Assembly: GCF_902788255.1 (NCBI RefSeq)
Contig: NZ_CADAJR010000003.1
Location: 1-64,000 of the forward strand
DNA from: an uncultured Methanobrevibacter sp.
Lineage (GTDB): Archaea > Methanobacteriota > Methanobacteria > Methanobacteriales > Methanobacteriaceae
DNA: 64,000 bases
Direction of reading: 5' to 3'
Shown here: one piece after another, positions 1 through 64,000 of the stretch
Layout: every line of letters begins with the position of its first letter
Position numbering within the stretch: the first letter of the stretch is position 1
Translations under genes and position numbers: made by a program
Notes under the pieces: generated by a model
The model's database searches: none
What the model saw: only the letters and a program-made list of their open reading frames with translations
Told to the model about the DNA's origin: nothing

Positions 1-323
1 ATTTTTTCACCAAATTGAGTTGAGCTACAAAGCAAGTTTTTTGCAATAGCCAGCCATATGGTATACAAATTTTATTTTATCAAAGATATAATATAAAGAT
101 TACCTATGAAATATTTTAGAAAAGTTTATAAAGTATAATAAAACATTTTTTATTTAAGAAAAATGCTGTCAAAAGTAATACTTTTTTATTAACCTAAAAA
201 TTTATTAAAATAGATATAATTTAATTAAATCATTTTAAATCATATTTAATACCTAAAATTCTAATCTTTTTTTATATACTCAAAATTTAAGAATAATATT
301 TAAGATTAAAGGAAAAAATTAAA

Positions 324-351
324 TTATTACTTTTGAGGTTCCAAGTAATAA
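324..351. promoter_or_regulatory. Inverted repeat upstream of mmp10 promoter
   Basis: TTATTACTT at 324-332 and AAGTAATAA at 343-351 are exact reverse complements separated by ten bases. The repeat lies about 50 bases upstream of the TATA-like element and shares its AAGTAAT core with the boxes at 171 and 360. This spacing fits a dimeric regulator site; the regulator is unknown. Confidence 0.45.
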
Positions 352-398
352 ATAATACTAAAAGTAATACAAAAAAATTCTAAAAAAAATATGCTGAA

Positions 399-407
399 TT
401 ATAAATA
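399..407 (+). promoter_or_regulatory. TATA-like box of mmp10
   Basis: TTATAAATA sits about 25-33 bases before the ATG at 432, the usual archaeal TATA to transcription-start distance. The mRNA would therefore be leaderless or nearly so, and no Shine-Dalgarno site is visible before the ATG. Confidence 0.5.
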
Positions 408-431
408 AAATGAAATAAAATATTAAATATT

Positions 432-30554: not shown

Positions 30555-31196
30555 ATGAAAGTTTATTTTAAGGATGGAAACGTTGCAACCCGCAATCTAT
30601 GTCCAGGAACATCTGTTTATGGAGAGGAACTGATAAGTGAAGGTGAGGAATATAGAATATGGAATCCTAGACGTTCAAAATTGGCTGCAGCCCTCCTGAA
30701 CGGACTGGAAAATCTGGAGCTTGATGAGGCTTCAAAAGTGCTGTACCTAGGTGCCTCAACCGGAACAACAGTTTCACACATTTCAGACATTGTAATTGAC
30801 GGGAAAATTTATGCTGTTGAATTTTCACCGACAACAGCCAAAAAATTGGTTCAGCTTTCACGTCAAAGACTTAATATCGCTCCAATCCTAGGTGACGCCA
30901 CCAAACCCAAAGGATATTTGAACCTTGTTGAAAAGACTGACTTAGTATATTGTGATGTTGCCCAGCCAACACAGACCGAACTGTTTATGAGAAATATGAA
31001 CCTGTTTGCAAAGGATGATGGTGTCGGTCTTTTAATGATTAAAGCTAGAAGTATTGATGTAGTACAAAAGCCCAAAAAGATTTTCAAACTACAAGAGCAA
31101 AAATTGAAAGAAAAAGGTTTTAAGATTATTGAAAAAGTCAAACTGGAACCTTACGAAAAAGACCATATTGCATTTCTTGTAGAAAAAAATTTTTAA
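30555..31196 (+). CDS. flpA: Fibrillarin-like rRNA/tRNA 2'-O-methyltransferase
   Basis: A 213-residue fibrillarin, the SAM-dependent methyltransferase of C/D-box particles and partner of Nop5. The segment YRIWNPRRSKLAAALLNGL (near 36-54), the SAM loop LYLGASTGTTVSHISDI (near 63-79), VEFSPTTAKKL and the catalytic-region motif LMIKARSID (near 154-162) are all present. It starts three bases after the nop5 stop with an AGGAGGT site overlapping that gene. A CCTCAATTGAGG palindrome follows at 31207-31218. Confidence 0.95.
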   Translation: MKVYFKDGNVATRNLCPGTSVYGEELISEGEEYRIWNPRRSKLAAALLNGLENLELDEASKVLYLGASTGTTVSHISDIVIDGKIYAVEFSPTTAKKLVQLSRQRLNIAPILGDATKPKGYLNLVEKTDLVYCDVAQPTQTELFMRNMNLFAKDDGVGLLMIKARSIDVVQKPKKIFKLQEQKLKEKGFKIIEKVKLEPYEKDHIAFLVEKNF

Positions 31197-31275
31197 ACAA
31201 AACGACCCTCAATTGAGGTAAATTTTAGGTAAAAAATAGTTGTAATTAATTTAAAAAATTACTACAAAAAATGCT

Positions 31276-31312
31276 AAAAAGTATTACTTAGATAGCTTTT
31301 TATACTATAAAA
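31276..31312 (+). promoter_or_regulatory. Box plus TATA element before RNA candidate
   Basis: AAAAAGTATTACTTA (31276-31290) is followed by CTTTTTATACTATAAAA (31296-31312). A TATA element here predicts transcription from about 31325-31335, shortly before the hairpin at 31347. A second copy of the box at 31488-31500 also precedes a TATA-like sequence. Confidence 0.4.
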
Positions 31313-31346
31313 TTAAATATTATTATTGCTAATGCAAATAAAATAA

Positions 31347-31429
31347 TAGTTCATTGAAACTGCCTTTAGGCTTATTCACTCTATTAGTCACTCCATTTAA
31401 CTGAATCCTAAAGGCATGAACTACTTTTT
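31347..31429 (+). ncRNA. Candidate structured small RNA
   Basis: A long hairpin can be drawn by eye. TAGTTCAT (31347-31354) pairs with ATGAACTA (31416-31423), GCCTTTAGG (31362-31370) with CCTAAAGGC (31407-31415), and ATTCA (31374-31378) with TGAAT (31402-31406). This makes 22 pairs with a seven-base bulge TGAAACT and a three-base bulge, closed by a loop of about 23 bases. A T5 tract follows at 31425-31429 and a promoter-like element precedes it. No classic C box is seen, so it is not an obvious C/D guide despite lying next to nop5-flpA. A miniature inverted-repeat element is the alternative. Confidence 0.5.
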
Positions 31430-31530
31430 AAATTTAACTGATTTTTAAGAGACTTTTTTTCAAAGATTGTTTTAATGTTTTTAAACTAAAAAGTATTACT
31501 AAATTAAGCTTATAATCTCATATAGAATAA

Positions 31531-31740
31531 CTGATTTTACCTAAAATTAAAACCATCAAAAGAAAAACACCAAGACAAATTTTAGATTTTTTTGAAATTT
31601 ACAAACGGAAAACAAAATTGATATGAAAATATAATCCAGATTTAAACCACAGATATGACATTTCAGTTTTGAAAAAATATTTCAGCAAGATCGCCATGAC
31701 ACTCAGGAAAAAAGTTCCATTATATGAAAAATATGATTAA
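31531..31740 (+). pseudogene. Remnant of a small gene with an in-frame stop
   Basis: One frame reads protein-like from 31531 to the TAA at 31738, broken by a single TGA at 31624. Before the stop it gives KRKTPRQILDFFEIYKRKTK; after it come YNPDLNHRYDISVLKKY and SKIAMTLRKKVPLYEKYD. The composition is unlike random AT-rich DNA. No start codon or family is recognised and TAA codons bound it upstream. It looks like the decayed end of a gene of about 70 or more codons. Confidence 0.45.
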
Positions 31741-31848: not shown

Positions 31849-32472
31849 TTATAACTTTTTATAAATTACATCAAAAATGCTTTTGGAAATCTCTCTTTTT
31901 GAAGCCAAAGGCACAGTTAAAACCTCATCATCAACAATCAGGACCTCGTTGTTGTCAGATCCGAAATGACAATCATTTCTGGATATGTCATTGGCAATGA
32001 CCAAATCGGTGCCCGCATTTTCAATCTGTCGCCTTGCACACTCAATGATTTCATCCTTTGAAATATTGAATTCGGCCTTAAATCCTACCAGAAATATGTC
32101 CGGGTTGATTTTTTTAATCTGACGGATAATTTTGGTTGTAGGTTTCAGGTTTAAGTTCAGAGAACTTGAAGAATCAATTTTCTTATCAGATTTTTGTCTG
32201 AATTCAAAATCAGAAACTGCAGCTGCAGATATGAAAATATCACAAGATGGAATCAATTTTAAGATCGCATCATTCATCTCGGCACTGGTTTCAACACGAA
32301 CAACATCAAAAACAGATGGAATTTCAACACTGACGTTAGCGACAACCAGTTTTAAATCGGCCCCTCGAATGTATGCTTCACGGGCAAGTGCCAAACCCAT
32401 TTTACCGGAGGATTTGTTGGTGATTCCCCTGACGGAATCGATGGGTTCATAAGTACCCCCAAGACTTATCAA
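31849..32472 (-). CDS. coaB: Phosphopantothenoylcysteine synthetase part (CoaB) of split coaBC
   Basis: A 207-residue CoaB domain, which joins cysteine to phosphopantothenate using a nucleotide. Seen are SLGGTYEPIDSVRGITNKSS at the start, the AAAVSDFEF segment, KPTTKIIRQIKK and the VANDIS motif near 167. In most archaea CoaB is the C-terminal half of a single CoaBC protein. Here the first possible start is TTG at 32472. The sequence continues sensibly upstream in this frame (YIKRTDTIKGKKIL), joining CoaC if one base is removed near 32502-32513. It may be a broken fusion, or a separately translated protein with AAAGG as ribosome site. Confidence 0.85.
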   Translation of the reverse strand: MISLGGTYEPIDSVRGITNKSSGKMGLALAREAYIRGADLKLVVANVSVEIPSVFDVVRVETSAEMNDAILKLIPSCDIFISAAAVSDFEFRQKSDKKIDSSSSLNLNLKPTTKIIRQIKKINPDIFLVGFKAEFNISKDEIIECARRQIENAGTDLVIANDISRNDCHFGSDNNEVLIVDDEVLTVPLASKREISKSIFDVIYKKL

Positions 32473-32494
32473 AATCTTTTTACCTTTAATAGTA

Positions 32495-33010
32495 TCAGTC
32501 CTTTTTATGTAAATTAATAGTTCTTAAAGATTCGAGAACAATATCATCTTTAGAAGGGAATTTGGCTTTGCCTTCATCCATTCTAGGTTTTATAAAGGTT
32601 GCTGATCCTTCCTGCTTTATCTTATCAATATTTTCCTTGACCGCACGATACATTGAATCATGCATTGAAGGAACAAAAATAATAGGGGTGTCGTGACCTT
32701 GAGCAGTAATTAAAAGAGTTGAGATGGGATTGTCGGCTATCTTATGTGCAAATTTGGAAATCGTATTTGCAGTAGCCGGCGCAACCAGTATCAAATCTTC
32801 CTGAGAATATTTCACATGTTCAATTTTACCGGTGAGCCTGGTTACAACTTCATTACCTGTTGCAAATTCCATAGCATTCGGATGAATGATTTCACATGCT
32901 GACTCACTCATGAAGCATTTGACTTCAGCACCATTTCTCCTAAGTTCACGAGCCAATTTAATTGATTCGGTAGCCGCAATACTACCTGTAACACACAATA
33001 TAATCATCAA
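32495..33010 (-). CDS. coaC: Phosphopantothenoylcysteine decarboxylase part (CoaC) of split coaBC
   Basis: A 171-residue flavoprotein domain that decarboxylates phosphopantothenoylcysteine to 4'-phosphopantetheine for coenzyme A. The FMN loop CVTGSIAATESIKLAREL, the EHVKYSQEDLILVAPATANT segment with the family histidine, and the VPSMHDSMY motif are present. The frame ends at a TGA only a few codons after the place where the CoaB frame becomes readable. Together the two parts give about 388 residues, the normal CoaBC length, which supports a frameshift rather than two unrelated genes. Confidence 0.88.
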   Translation of the reverse strand: MMIILCVTGSIAATESIKLARELRRNGAEVKCFMSESACEIIHPNAMEFATGNEVVTRLTGKIEHVKYSQEDLILVAPATANTISKFAHKIADNPISTLLITAQGHDTPIIFVPSMHDSMYRAVKENIDKIKQEGSATFIKPRMDEGKAKFPSKDDIVLESLRTINLHKKD

Positions 33011-57757: not shown

Positions 57758-58756
57758 CTACAATAATCCGATAACAATGGCTAAAATTCCAAGCAATGTA
57801 GTTCCCAAAATGGTTGGCAGCAATTGCCTATTTGTAAATACCGGAGCGAAAGCTGAAAATATTCCCATCATGAACACGAATATGACTGCAACAAGAATAT
57901 TGACAAGAATTCCCCATGAAAAGATTGTTGGCGGAACTCCAATGAACAATACTGAGAATACCGCACCGAGTACGAACATGAAAAATCCTCTGGTTACAAC
58001 TACTATTGCCCTATATTTGGCCGCATACTCCATGTATGGTCCTTCAATAACATCACTTTTTGCCTTAATGATTGAAAATGGATATTCATTCAAAATTATC
58101 ATGTAACCGATGAAAAATACTATTGCTGCGATTCCACCTGCTACAGTAAATAGGAATGGTCCGTGTGCCTGCTGGTATGCAACGATATCCTTCAGGAATA
58201 TGCTTCCCGCTGCAGTAACCGGTGCAAACAATGCCAGATACAGTGGGAATGAACCGTAGGTAATCATCCTGAGTGATCTTCTTGCACTTATATCCTCAAT
58301 GAATGAACGGTTAGCATTTTGATGAGCTGCTCCCTTGATTTGGTCAGGGAACGGCATGTTAACTGACATTACGGATTTGGACAATGCTCCCATCAATACA
58401 TAACAGATTTCCTCGACTTTTAAAAATCCGACAATAGCCACAAGACTTGCCAAAGCAGGAATCTTATATGCTTGAGGAGTCAATGCAATTAAAACGCACA
58501 ATACCACTAAAAAGCATAGAATCGGCAATAACTTATACAATCCCGGAACGGGAGATGAAATTTTAACGTTTTCCTTGAACATGAATTTGAGCGGAGCCAT
58601 AATTCCCGGAGATGTCACCGGAGGCCCAATCCTTTGCTGGATTCTTGCATGAATATATTTTCTCTCAATACCCGGAAGTAATGTTGAAATTACAAAACAA
58701 ACAAGCACAGTCAATATTACTGCAAGAACTGAATTGATTAAAGTACTTTCAAACAT
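57758..58756 (-). CDS. ehbO: Ehb membrane subunit EhbO (NuoH-like)
   Basis: A 332-residue polytopic protein of the complex I NuoH/HyfC type, about eight helices. The conserved charged loop IERKYIHARIQQRIGPPVTSPGI (split here: IERKYIHARIQQRIGPP near 30-46) and the EYPFSIIKAKSDVIEGPYME segment near 218-237 mark the site where the hydrogenase module meets the membrane and where ion translocation is coupled. It starts three bases before ehbN ends upstream. Membrane-bound. Confidence 0.9.
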   Translation of the reverse strand: MFESTLINSVLAVILTVLVCFVISTLLPGIERKYIHARIQQRIGPPVTSPGIMAPLKFMFKENVKISSPVPGLYKLLPILCFLVVLCVLIALTPQAYKIPALASLVAIVGFLKVEEICYVLMGALSKSVMSVNMPFPDQIKGAAHQNANRSFIEDISARRSLRMITYGSFPLYLALFAPVTAAGSIFLKDIVAYQQAHGPFLFTVAGGIAAIVFFIGYMIILNEYPFSIIKAKSDVIEGPYMEYAAKYRAIVVVTRGFFMFVLGAVFSVLFIGVPPTIFSWGILVNILVAVIFVFMMGIFSAFAPVFTNRQLLPTILGTTLLGILAIVIGLL

Positions 58757-58759
58757 TGT

Positions 58760-59887
58760 TTACCTCCTTATAATCTCTATTGCCCTATCTGTACAAGTGA
58801 AACATGGATCACATTGTACGATACATAATTGTGCATCAGTAATTTGGTCTCCAATACATGCATATTGCATTGCACCGATATTTGCCATTGAAGGGGTCCT
58901 GATAATTGAATGTCTTACCCTTCCGCTTTCCAGTGCGTATGAATGATATAAAGTTCCCCTTGGAACTTCAATGTAACTTTGAATAATGTCTGTGTCAAAC
59001 ATTTCCCAGTCACGGTTTATTACTTTACCTTCAGGAATGTTTGCAATAGCCTGCCTTATGAGTTTAATTGACTCAAATGACTCCAATGCCCTCATGACAA
59101 GATTTGATTTTACATCACCGTCAGGTTGGGTTATTACATTAAAATCAAAATCGTCATATTCAAACATTGTTGTTCTTAAATCCCTTGCAACGCCTGTTGC
59201 CCTTAAAGTCGGTCCGGTAACTGCCAGTTCGATAGCCTGCTTTTGAGGAAGTACTCCTATGCCTGTAACCCTTGACAATAGGATGGAATCAGCCATGAAT
59301 CTATCAACAAATCCGGTAAGTCCCTCTTCAATCGCATCCATATCATTTTTGAGTCTTAACAGCTTTGCTTCATTCAAATCACATCTTGGCCTTACTCCGC
59401 CTATTACAGAGCAACCGTACTGTACACGGTTTCCTCCAATCATTGCAAGCAGTTCCATTACTATTTCCCTCAGGTAGAATACCCTCATTGAAAATGTTTC
59501 ATGAGACAATACCTCACAACCGTGTGCTAGGTATAAGAAATGTGAGTGTAAACGTTCAAGTTCACTCATAATTACACGAATGTATTTGGCCCTTTCCGGA
59601 ATTTCGATATTCAAACCCATTTCGGCTGTTCTGCATGAATTCCATATATGTGCGTTTGAACAAATTCCACATATTTTTTCAGTCAATGCATTAGCCTTTT
59701 CAACCGGAAGTCCTTCCATGATCCTTTCTATTCCCCTATGATTAACACCAATAGTTATTTCGGCTTCCTGAACGATTTCATCCTCTACAAAAAACCTTAC
59801 CCTATATGGCTCCAATGCAGCAGGGTGAACTGTACCCATTGGAATTTCAGTTTCAATAATATTGCTTCTTGGTACTTTTTCATCCAT
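58760..59887 (-). CDS. ehbN: Ehb [NiFe]-hydrogenase large subunit EhbN
   Basis: A 375-residue large subunit. The two cysteine pairs that bind nickel are [11 protein letters not shown] (near 70-80) and DPCFTCTDR close to the C-terminus. The protein ends shortly after the second motif, so, as in other group 4 enzymes, little or no C-terminal peptide would be cleaved. Ehb uses the ion gradient to drive ferredoxin reduction with H2 for CO2 fixation. It partners EhbM, encoded 14 bases upstream. Confidence 0.93.
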
Positions 59888-59901
59888 TCAAATTCCCCCT
59901 C

Positions 59902-60348
59902 TTAATCCGCATCTAATAATGTAGGTAATAGTGATACAACTCCAGCCAAAACATCCTGAGGCCTTACGGCACAGCCCGGAACCTTAGCGTTAACCGGAAT
60001 AATGTTTTCAACTGGTCCTTCAATTTCTTCGGAAGGAATGTCACCAGAACAGTTCTTATAAACACCACCCATCAGTGCACAACTTCCAGCGGCTACAACC
60101 AATTTAGGATTAGGAATAGCCTCATAAATTGCCTCCAATGGTTTTCTATTAAAATGTGTAACAGGACCTGTGACAACCAATACGTCAGCTTCACGAGGAT
60201 TCCATGTTAAAAACACCTTATACTGTTCAGCATCGAAACGTGGTGATAATATTGAGTTTACAATTTCAATATCGCAACCGTTACATCCTCCTGTATAAAC
60301 AAGCATGACGTGAATTGCCCTTGCCCTTGAAAATGATTTAATTCCCAT
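59902..60348 (-). CDS. ehbM: Ehb [NiFe]-hydrogenase small subunit EhbM
   Basis: A 148-residue small subunit that holds the proximal [4Fe-4S] cluster. The ligand motifs are [13 protein letters not shown] (near 20-32), [12 protein letters not shown] and [14 protein letters not shown]. It is short and lacks the extra clusters of other hydrogenases, typical of group 4. It begins immediately after the ehbL stop codon. Confidence 0.93.
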
Positions 60349-60840
60349 CTAATCACCATCCTCTCTATTTTTCAATACTGTTTTATCTGACAGGTATTGT
60401 GCAATGAATTTAAGCTTATCATCAGAAATTTTAAATGGCTGTTCAAGTGCGCTTGCAATGTCCACTTCAATGTCCCCGACATTACTTGGATGTATTGTTC
60501 CTTTCTCACCATAAAGTGAAAATACAGGACAGAAATCATGACAGTAATAGCATACAACACATTTTTCAAGATTAATTTCAGGTACTTCACTTTTGGTCCA
60601 ATTATCTGTCAGTTTAACTGGATTAGCCAATTTTTTCATCTCTACCGCACCTGTCGGACAGACATTGGCACAACCTGCACATCCAATACAGGCCTTTTCG
60701 TCAACACGGTCATCCACTTCAACGGACAGTGTTGAGATTTGCTTTCTCAATTCCATGTCTGTAACTCTATCAGCTGCAAAAAAGATTCTTTTAAAGTTAG
60801 TAAATGCTCCTTCTAAAGCTATTCTTAGTATACTACTCAT
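60349..60840 (-). CDS. ehbL: Ehb ferredoxin-type subunit EhbL
   Basis: A 163-residue protein with two [4Fe-4S] binding motifs, CIGCAGCANVCPTGAV (near 56-71) and CVVCYYCHDFCPVFSL (near 96-111), like complex I NuoI. It passes electrons between the small subunit and ferredoxin. The gap to ehbK and to ehbM is zero bases, so all three are translated from one message. Confidence 0.9.
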   Translation of the reverse strand: MSSILRIALEGAFTNFKRIFFAADRVTDMELRKQISTLSVEVDDRVDEKACIGCAGCANVCPTGAVEMKKLANPVKLTDNWTKSEVPEINLEKCVVCYYCHDFCPVFSLYGEKGTIHPSNVGDIEVDIASALEQPFKISDDKLKFIAQYLSDKTVLKNREDGD

Positions 60841-62244
60841 TTAAATACCCTCTATTGAATCTTTGAAATTTCTCTCAAACAGGAACGCCTTTGCAGGACA
60901 TGCGTTTTTACATGCACCGCAATAGGTACAGTTTTCCTCTTTGACCACATAGTTACCGTCAATCTTTTCGATTGCATCATATGAACAAATTCCGTAACAT
61001 ACTCCACAATGCATACATAACTCCTGTTCAATGAAGTTAAATCCGTCTTTTATTTCATTCTTGTACATTGTAGATTTTGGAATTGCATCAACAGGACAAT
61101 GAACCGCACAGTTTTCACATAATATACATTTAGCCAAATCAACAGAAATCTTACCCCTGTGCAATGTGATTGCGTCTTCCTGACACATTTCCACACAGAT
61201 TCCACAAGAAATACAGTCGTCTGTGACCTTGCCGTCCCATGTCTGTGTCATTACCTGACGGGCTTTGGCATCATCACAAACCTGTACACATTTACCGCAG
61301 CTTACACAGAAACCGGACAATGTAGGAAGCTCTGCATCATCAATTTCATCATATATAAACATCTCATCGTCTTCACGAAGTGTGAGAACAGGACAATGTG
61401 AAATAGCCAAATCATGTGTGACATTTTCAGTATCCTGTGTCGGATCATACCTTAATTTACCATCATCATTTTTAAGTGATCCGTTTTCACACAGGTCCGC
61501 ACACAATCCGCAGTTCAAACAGGATATGATTTTACCTGCCGGCTTTTGATTTAACTTATTAATAACGATTTTAAAGTCATCCACTGAAATCGCATTGTGA
61601 GGACAAGCCTTCATACAGTTCAGACAAAGGGTACATGAATATGAATTTACCATCTGATGCTTGTTCATTGATTCATTAGGACAGACATCAGCACAGATTC
61701 TGCATTCACGACAGATTCCTTCATCCCTATCCACCTTGACATGTATTGCCCCGGTTGGACAGTATTCCTCACATCTGCCACAGAGTATACATTTTTCTGT
61801 ATCAGTCCCGAAGTATGTTCTTGAAACTTCAGTGACCAGATTTTCACTTTTATGTGGCACATTATCCAATGGAGGATTTAAAATGTTAAATGATTTGATT
61901 AATGTAATCTGTTTGTCTCTTTCAAATTCAAAACCGTCTACACGACAATCAGGGTACTTCTCTGCACATACACCACAGCGTGAACATATACCGTAGACAA
62001 TTCCGTCTTCAATTGTAATGTTGTTTGTCGGACAGTTGTACATACACATTCCACAGCCGTTACATTTGGCTCTGTCTACAACATATCCTCCATAGCTGTT
62101 TTTAAATATTGCATGATTCGGACAGTTTTTCTGACAAATTCCACATGTCAGACAACTGAACGGAACCCCATTAACCAGTCTAATGGATTTTGTAGGACAT
62201 GATTTAATGCATTCCTCATCACATACATTAGTTGACAAAAACAT
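60841..62244 (-). CDS. ehbK: Ehb polyferredoxin EhbK
   Basis: A 467-residue polyferredoxin. I count eleven complete C-x2-C-x2-C-x3-C motifs, for example CLTCGICQKNCPNHAI, CNGCGMCMYNCPTNNI, CILCGRCEEYCPTGAI and CTYCGACKNACPAKAF. There is also a variant first motif (CDEECIKSCP) and a fourth one in which the last cysteine is displaced (CSRCGVCAEKYPDC). It would be an electron wire within the Ehb complex. It is 11 bases downstream of ehbJ. Confidence 0.92.
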   Translation of the reverse strand: MFLSTNVCDEECIKSCPTKSIRLVNGVPFSCLTCGICQKNCPNHAIFKNSYGGYVVDRAKCNGCGMCMYNCPTNNITIEDGIVYGICSRCGVCAEKYPDCRVDGFEFERDKQITLIKSFNILNPPLDNVPHKSENLVTEVSRTYFGTDTEKCILCGRCEEYCPTGAIHVKVDRDEGICRECRICADVCPNESMNKHQMVNSYSCTLCLNCMKACPHNAISVDDFKIVINKLNQKPAGKIISCLNCGLCADLCENGSLKNDDGKLRYDPTQDTENVTHDLAISHCPVLTLREDDEMFIYDEIDDAELPTLSGFCVSCGKCVQVCDDAKARQVMTQTWDGKVTDDCISCGICVEMCQEDAITLHRGKISVDLAKCILCENCAVHCPVDAIPKSTMYKNEIKDGFNFIEQELCMHCGVCYGICSYDAIEKIDGNYVVKEENCTYCGACKNACPAKAFLFERNFKDSIEGI

Positions 62245-62255
62245 GATAAAACCCC

Positions 62256-62504
62256 TTATTTACTCCTTGCAAATATTAGTTTGCCTACAAAAATTCCTAT
62301 TAATGCAGATAAAAATGCGGTGGAAATCGGCAAGTCTGTATAAAACGGATAGTTGCCGGATTGCCATGCGACAATAATTCCTGCAATAAGTACTATAATA
62401 AACGCTCCGAGAGTGAAATGAGTATCGTTAACATTGAGCTTTATCTGTGATCCGATAACCAAGCCCAATATCAGTCCGAATATTATTGGTCCAAGAGATA
62501 ACAT
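62256..62504 (-). CDS. ehbJ: Ehb membrane subunit EhbJ
   Basis: An 82-residue protein with three hydrophobic segments (about 5-18, 27-46 and 57-77), with no cofactor motif. Position between ehbI and ehbK identifies it. Start and stop codons of ehbI and ehbJ share one base region (62504), showing coupled translation. Confidence 0.82.
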   Translation of the reverse strand: MLSLGPIIFGLILGLVIGSQIKLNVNDTHFTLGAFIIVLIAGIIVAWQSGNYPFYTDLPISTAFLSALIGIFVGKLIFARSK

Positions 62505-62980
62505 TATTCACCCTCCTCAACAATCTTTTTGAAACCCGCAAATGCAATAACAATTGAAGACAGTCCCACAAATACCTTTAAACCTACGAATATGTTAAGG
62601 TATGGAATAATACCTGCATTTGTAACATCCGGATAGTGTAGGATAGTCTGAATGGATGAAGGAACGATATTGAATAAATCTGTACCTACATTGTAGAGGA
62701 AAAATCCTCCGACAAACAAACCGATCAGTCCAAAGACTACAAAACCCAATGCACCAACGGATTCCAATACTTCAATATATAAGTGTGACAATTCTAATGG
62801 GGAATTACCTATTCCATAGACAAGTATAGACAATATAATTCCACTTGCAATCATTGCACCACCCTGGAAACCTCCACCAGGAGTGATGTGACCTCCAAGA
62901 ATGGTCATTATACCAAGACAAATCAATATGATTGAAATTGGCAAAGATATAAGTTTTAAAATCATACTACCTTGACTCAT
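62504..62980 (-). CDS. ehbI: Ehb membrane subunit EhbI (MnhB-like)
   Basis: A 158-residue membrane protein with a MnhB/MrpB-type domain; ITPGGGFQGGAMIASG (near 32-47) is the family signature, and four helices are visible. It belongs to the Mrp-antiporter-like part of Ehb that moves Na+ or H+. ATG at 62980 overlaps the ehbH stop by four bases. Confidence 0.87.
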   Translation of the reverse strand: MSQGSMILKLISLPISIILICLGIMTILGGHITPGGGFQGGAMIASGIILSILVYGIGNSPLELSHLYIEVLESVGALGFVVFGLIGLFVGGFFLYNVGTDLFNIVPSSIQTILHYPDVTNAGIIPYLNIFVGLKVFVGLSSIVIAFAGFKKIVEEGE

Positions 62981-63255
62981 CTTTTATCCCCCAATAATCC
63001 TCTGCCGAATATTAACAAAACAACCAGTCCGGCAGTCAATAATATAATTGATTCTCCCAATGTATCGTATGCTCTGAAATCAAATATAACAACGGTAACT
63101 AGGTTTGGAGCAATTTGAGTTCCCAAAGCGTTGTAGATATAGCTTACACCAGGGTTAATCATGCTGCTTAAATGGAATACCGCATCAAGCAATGTGACGG
63201 AAAATATTCCTGTGAGAACCGCTGCAAGTAAATTACGAATAGTTGGATTAGACAA
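62977..63255 (-). CDS. ehbH: Ehb membrane subunit EhbH
   Basis: About 92 residues from the TTG at 63255, which has GGGGTGG six bases upstream. The longer reading from 63285 would extend far into ehbG and is unlikely. FDFRAYDTLGESIILLTAG near residues 55-73 is the motif of MbhE/MrpA-terminal subunits. Two or three helices. It overlaps ehbG by eight bases and ehbI by four. Confidence 0.82.
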   Translation of the reverse strand: MSNPTIRNLLAAVLTGIFSVTLLDAVFHLSSMINPGVSYIYNALGTQIAPNLVTVVIFDFRAYDTLGESIILLTAGLVVLLIFGRGLLGDKR

Positions 63256-63583
63256 GGTTACCACCCCAGTACATGAATGTGACAATCAATGCAAGTGTGA
63301 CCACCGCATAGAATAACATTTTTTCAAGAGAATCTTCCTGTTCAATTTTAAACTTAGGAATAAGTGGAATATTTGAAATAAGGACGATTGCCAGTATCAA
63401 TGCAACCAATCCTGCAAGTAAAACACTTACATGTCTCAATAATAATGCTGATAGAACCAATGATACAATCAGGAATATTTCCGCAGTGATACTACCGGAA
63501 ACATCCGCATTTGTAACAGGTCCTGGAGAGAACAATTTCTTGAATTGCTTTACAACATTGAATATCTGATCATAGAGTTTCAT
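63248..63583 (-). CDS. ehbG: Ehb membrane subunit EhbG
   Basis: A 111-residue protein. A short soluble N-terminus (about 30 residues) is followed by three hydrophobic segments (about 30-47, 50-72 and 88-108). It has no catalytic motif and is identified by its place between ehbF and ehbH. The ATG overlaps the ehbF stop codon by four bases. Confidence 0.8.
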   Translation of the reverse strand: MKLYDQIFNVVKQFKKLFSPGPVTNADVSGSITAEIFLIVSLVLSALLLRHVSVLLAGLVALILAIVLISNIPLIPKFKIEQEDSLEKMLFYAVVTLALIVTFMYWGGNLV

Positions 63584-64000
63584 AATATCCCTCCTACAAA
63601 GTTAGAAATGCCCTGTGTAACGACATCCGGGAAGATACCCAATACAATTATTATAATTAATAGAACTCCCATGGCAAAAATCATTGCCCTTGGAACCTCC
63701 AATCCTTCAAGTTCCAAATCGTTTGGTTTCGGTTTTAAGAATATGGTATAGAATGTTTTCATGAATACCACGAATGTTGCTATACTAACCATGATCGCCA
63801 AAATGGACAGTTCTGGGAATCCACAGCTTAATGATGCCTGAACAAGCATTAACTTGGATTGGAAACCGTTTAATGGAGGTACACCTGCCATCGCCATACC
63901 ACCAATCAAAAGCATGATACTTACTTTTGGATGGTATGCCAGAAGTCCACCAAGCTTTCTTGTATCAACCTCGTTTGTCGCCTCAACGATTGCACCGAAT
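63580..64000 (-). CDS. ehbF: Ehb proton/sodium-pump subunit EhbF, partial
   Basis: The C-terminal 139 residues of a NuoN/MrpD-type ion-pump subunit; the 5' part lies beyond the window. The frame is open to the edge. The segment EVDTRKLGGLLAYHPKVSIM followed by MAMAGVPPLNGFQSKLMLVQ is the conserved helix with lysine that lies on the ion path of this family. The internal ATG at 63915 is not the true start. Earlier ehb genes (A-E) should follow to the right. Confidence 0.88.
   Translation of the reverse strand, partial: FGAIVEATNEVDTRKLGGLLAYHPKVSIMLLIGGMAMAGVPPLNGFQSKLMLVQASLSCGFPELSILAIMVSIATFVVFMKTFYTIFLKPKPNDLELEGLEVPRAMIFAMGVLLIIIIVLGIFPDVVTQGISNFVGGIL

Follow-up and report, generated by a model that had tools for sequence, protein, structure and literature searches.

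The intergenic region between flpA and coaBC in a Methanobrevibacter genome carries what is best explained, as a whole, as a stand-alone gene for a non-coding RNA of about 100 nt that would be repressed by NikR, made at low nickel and perhaps paired with mRNAs; we assign this reading a rough probability of 0.62. The positions below are those of the window, the whole stretch of 64,000 nucleotides that was analysed, in which the locus is laid out as follows:

30555-31196, + strand: flpA, the upstream neighbour of the RNA gene.
31277-31289, + strand: box AAAAGTATTACTT, palindrome AAGTA-T-TACTT, a predicted NikR-type operator about 10 nt 5' of the TATA box and shared with nickel genes.
31299-31306, + strand: TATA element TTTATACT, seen in the sequence and conserved in alignments; 64 of 66 members have a TATA-like motif.
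31327-31346, + strand: conserved 5' leader TGCTAATGCAAATAAAATAA, almost invariant in alignments, beginning at the predicted transcription start (about 31328).
31328-31430, + strand: predicted small RNA, its start placed by the TATA distance and its end by the T-run.
31347-31353, + strand: outer helix, 5' arm, pairing with 31417-31423 (fold and covariation).
31363-31370, + strand: inner helix, 5' arm CCTTTAGG, pairing with 31407-31414 (covariation).
31371-31406, + strand: loop that is mostly open and contains ACUC repeats (UUCACUC...UCACUCC), conserved across 9 genera, the proposed contact site.
31407-31414, + strand: inner helix, 3' arm CCTAAAGG (covariation).
31417-31423, + strand: outer helix, 3' arm (fold and covariation).
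31425-31429, + strand: T5 run in the sequence, the probable 3' end of the RNA.
31489-31501, + strand: second copy of the box, AAAAGTATTACTA, downstream of the RNA and conserved in the genus.
31849-33010, - strand: coaBC, the downstream neighbour, convergent with flpA.

An earlier note on this DNA had described a 22-pair bulged hairpin with a T5 tail, lying in a gap of about 650 bases with a TATA-like element at the right distance upstream, and all four elements were recovered. The hairpin (31347-31429, + strand; 7+10+5 pairs, with bulges of 7 and 3 nt) folds at -20.4 kcal/mol (z -4.2), with none of 200 shuffles equally stable, and the 83-mer is present in a single copy in the source genome. 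The gap that holds it measures 652 bases from the flpA stop (31196) to the 3' end of coaBC (31849), the TATA-like element lies about 24 nt 5' of a conserved TGCTAATGC, and the T5 run is followed by a further T-run at 31454-31460. The five apical pairs (ATTCA/TGAAT) are a peculiarity of the source genome, most members keeping the loop open; the conserved, covarying part consists of the outer helix and CCTTTAGG/CCTAAAGG enclosing an open loop of about 36 nt. Transcription is predicted from the TATA box to start near 31328, at TGCTAATGC, and the RNA gene appears to have its own promoter, composed of the conserved box and the TATA element. The conserved RNA extends about 20 nt 5' of the hairpin as a leader containing TGCTAATGCAA, and the covariance model match in the source genome spans 31326-31433. 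Two other readings of the leader were rejected: (i), no locus has more than one copy of TGCTAATGCAA, which was not seen outside loci carrying the RNA gene among 319 fetched loci and is therefore not a general promoter motif, and (ii), the reading frame of the mini-ORF ATGCAAATAAAATAA (MQIK*) is broken in several members, so that it is no peptide gene.

Conservation of the locus extends well beyond the hairpin. A stretch of about 300 bases around it (31230-31520) has matches in almost every genome of the genus, with identities mostly of 69-87%, and the aligned relatives share the box AAAAAGTATTACTT, the TATA element, TGCTAATGCAAATAAAATAA, the helix AGTTCA/TGAACT, the helix CCTTTAGG/CCTAAAGG, the loop ATTCACTCTATTARTCACTYCATTTAA and T-rich tails. 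The 40 named contigs that carry the leader all belong to Methanobrevibacter, M. thaueri and M. millerae included. A first covariance model found the RNA in 94 of the 151 genomes of the order and a wider one in 99, distributed over 9 genera that all belong to one family. There is normally one copy per genome, the few extra matches being pieces at contig ends, and the flpA-RNA-coaBC neighbourhood is kept in most members of the other genera.

The covariance search that the earlier note had proposed as a check also bears out the structure itself. Among 47 distinct members, 11 of 16 pairs show double-sided, compensatory changes and standard pairs make up 93.6% of pair cells; the alignments, which were fitted to the covariance model and hence lean towards the structure, reach a covariation score of 0.319, compared with 0.194 +/- 0.009 for shuffles (0/500 as high). 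Pairing falls to 48-57% when the partners are slid by one base, and this control, together with the size of the effect, argues against an artefact of model fitting. Across the family, 7 of the 8 pairs of the inner helix have double changes, the variants including CCTTTAGG/CCTAAAGG, CCTCTAGG/CCTAGAGG and GTTCTAGG/CCTAGAAC. Loop spacing varies between members, and one member (G020) lacks the second ACUC motif. A truncated allele occurs at two loci, L087 (RUG648) and L178 (G113), where the hairpin has lost its 3' half and the loop is joined to downstream sequence. In several genomes, the 3' end of flpA and the stretch with the nickel box are duplicated a few kb away (L032 = G018:C3, L034 = G015:C15, L033, L035, L036, L039, L040 and L041), where they lead into another conserved stretch, TATCAAAATATATCAAGCTTTTGC, beyond which lie unrelated or adhesin-like genes; the interval between flpA and the RNA gene looks like a hotspot of duplication or insertion.

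The promoter box connects the RNA gene to a defined set of other genes. Among 66 distinct members, AAAGTA[A/T]TAC is present upstream of the RNA in 57, with a median distance of 49 nt to TGCTAATG, and AGTA[A/T]TAC within 300 nt downstream in 55. The source genome contains nine exact copies of AAAAGTATTACTT, at the RNA gene and at eight other sites, all eight intergenic; when up to one mismatch is allowed, the count rises to 49, compared with 21 for the reversed control. Next to the exact sites lie hmd/hmdC, mmp10 (with the box on its mcr-facing side), hypA, the gene of a nikA-like binding protein, cbiM/nikM with two boxes, the gene of an ATPase of the MinD kind of P-loop ATPases that is called CooC-like by resemblance only, and that of an unknown membrane protein; one site has no clear gene beside it. 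The sites with one mismatch include those at another cbiM and at a P1B-type metal ATPase. The membrane protein (L049, 1602-2801; about 390 aa, with no NCBIfam match and an exact box 95 nt upstream) is a candidate new gene of the nickel regulon. In all seven genomes compared, from three genera, the mcr operon carries a box about 200-260 nt before mcrB, and the methyl-CoM reductase operon may itself be under nickel control. The mcr leader (upstream of mcrB in L274-L280; window 171-185) is long and conserved across genera, has the nickel box upstream and could apparently fold into a hairpin, CTCAATTTGGTAA...TTACCATTGAG. The contig itself starts between mmp10 and mcr (G000:C3 start, window 1-430), and searches of the source genome found neither MCR beta nor, among the hydrogenases, MvhA, probably as a result of assembly gaps.

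The combination of hmd, hypA, the nikA-like gene and mmp10-mcr fits nickel best; the set of genes with the box resembles a nickel-limitation regulon, of which NikR is the likely regulator. The source genome has one NikR, and NikR is present in 16 of 16 genomes tested. Under nickel limitation, hmd and mtd transcription rises and frh transcription falls in Methanothermobacter (PMC3087415), in which Frh and Mvh nearly vanish at low nickel while a NikR homologue rises (PMC12350162). We thus consider it likely that the RNA is under nickel control of the NikR type, a reading in which both the binding and the nickel response are predicted from the box and the genes that share it. That the small RNA is real and conserved but its box answers to a different regulator or signal, such as cobalt, zinc or general hydrogenase control, is by comparison unlikely: NikR binding is a prediction, cbiM genes also belong to the box set and one NikR homologue of Methanothermobacter may sense zinc (PMC3087415), but the gene combination fits nickel best and hmd responds to nickel in the related genus. 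The box differs from the E. coli NikR operator, GTATGA-N16-TCATAC (PMC7055735). Three genomes (G032, L174; G098, L176; G108, L177) keep the RNA and NikR and lack the promoter box; their nickel box may differ, or the control may have been lost.

On the best reading, the RNA would act in trans during nickel limitation and be subject to control of the NikR type. At plentiful nickel, the single nickel-loaded NikR would bind the box and keep the RNA gene off, a step that we infer with some assurance. At low nickel, the RNA would be made together with proteins for nickel uptake (the nikA-like protein, cbiM/nikM), for nickel insertion (hypA) and with the nickel-free [Fe]-hydrogenase (hmd/hmdC). More speculatively, its open loop with the ACUC repeats and/or its 5' leader might pair with mRNAs near their start codons, the loop UUCACUC...ACUCC being complementary to start-site sequences of the GAGUG type, and such pairing might reduce the synthesis of dispensable nickel enzymes, following a sparing logic similar to that of RyhB. 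We give nickel-sparing regulation by base pairing even odds at best, and we advance only tentatively the fuller proposal that a NikR-repressed, trans-acting RNA lowers nickel enzymes post-transcriptionally throughout the family while Hmd and uptake are switched on. Since the box is also found at mcr, whose product is an indispensable nickel enzyme, the promoters that carry it may not all be controlled in the same direction.

Target prediction covered chosen stretches of the genomes. Duplex energies of the RNA with the frhA and mcrB leaders were no better than those of random windows. Start sites of eha and ehb looked enriched only against crude ORFs; with better-chosen genes their pairing was not significant against shuffled loops (12/100), and the effect was absent in two other genera. 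Some ehb start sites carry GAGTGA, at a frequency not significantly enriched over background. The ehb operon, for the energy-converting [NiFe]-hydrogenase b, occupies 57758-64000 of the window on the - strand (also L335) and runs past the window end. As a target, nikC was rejected: the pairing with AGAGTGAAT at the nikB/nikC junction (G000, G028 and G073) is not conserved, the loop of G073 differs, and among the sites fetched in G013 and G033 none lies at nikC. The pattern GGAGTN{3,14}ATG is far too common to serve as a target signature. These results bear on the possibility that the RNA is nickel-regulated and conserved and that its loop and leader bind and titrate a protein instead of pairing with mRNA: the ACUC-repeat loop is conserved across genera, yet no conserved mRNA target was found in the chosen stretches. 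On the other hand, no protein of such a kind is known, loop spacing is variable and G020 dispenses with the second motif, and we regard titration as improbable.

That the RNA is real, conserved and the founder of a new family is, in our view, almost certain. The earlier note had put it forward as a candidate new structured RNA that was neither a tRNA nor of a recognisable class, and this is strongly supported by family-wide conservation, by covariation, by a predicted promoter of its own and by searches with the Rfam 15 covariance models, which at the gathering thresholds matched no family in the whole window and returned nothing for 31200-31560 even at E<=1; the window holds no predicted tRNA either. 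The position between the convergent flpA and coaBC genes and the T-run at its end could suggest a 3' untranslated hairpin or a bidirectional terminator in place of an independent regulator; with a dedicated conserved box and a TATA promoter directly upstream, and with loop and leader more conserved than a terminator needs, this is very unlikely. The location beside nop5-flpA, which the earlier note had found suggestive, is all that speaks for a C/D or H/ACA guide RNA or for some other RNA that belongs with the C/D RNP genes next door, and that link is not supported: neither a C box (RUGAUGA), as the note had already remarked, nor a D box (CUGA) was found near the ends in the sequence or the alignment, there is no pseudouridylation pocket, the Rfam search was negative at E<=1, and the promoter box belongs to other genes, those of the nickel regulon. 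A guide RNA is thus highly improbable, and the location looks incidental, a matter of plain synteny. A miniature mobile element or other repeat, finally, can practically be dismissed: the inverted repeat and the flpA ends and promoter stretches duplicated nearby in some genomes would agree with it, but in place of the many dispersed copies that would mark such an element there is a single syntenic one, at the same place across genera, with covariation and with no match in viral contigs.

The switch of methanogens at low nickel, in which [NiFe]-hydrogenases go down and the nickel-free Hmd is used, is known physiology whose regulation is poorly explained. With the promoter box that it has in common with hmd, hypA, nik and mcr genes, the conserved RNA now provides a concrete, testable component of this response in major producers of rumen and gut methane, and it probably helps gut methanogens of the Methanobrevibacter family to cope with nickel shortage. 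Two further products of this work are an RNA family that Rfam lacks and a predicted operator for an archaeal nickel regulon, which is simple and can be searched for.

Like archaeal C/D box RNAs, the new RNA is a small archaeal RNA, and its gene lies beside nop5-flpA; it differs from them in having no C/D boxes and no Rfam match. Closer in kind are sRNA154 and sRNA162 of Methanosarcina mazei and sRNA132 of Haloferax volcanii, which are intergenic, trans-acting archaeal RNAs, sRNA154 being tied to nitrogen limitation and sRNA132 to phosphate limitation; they answer to other signals in other lineages and share no common sequence or shape with it. Among the open-access papers that we searched, we found no archaeal small RNA regulated by nickel or controlled by a metalloregulator, which is no proof of absence. 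In Helicobacter pylori, NikR represses the small RNAs Nrr1, Nrr2 and IsoB (PMC5385501). The likeness lies in a small RNA with a NikR site, predicted or shown, at its promoter and with predicted expression at low nickel; the H. pylori RNAs are bacterial and unrelated in sequence and shape, and experiments demonstrated their NikR binding and their response to nickel, whereas both are predictions for the archaeal RNA. RyhB-type RNAs are bacterial, Hfq-dependent and governed by iron and Fur. Set against this iron/Fur system, the sparing role of the archaeal RNA is a proposal, and the likeness that we propose is one of logic: in both, a metal repressor would silence an RNA that spares the scarce metal.
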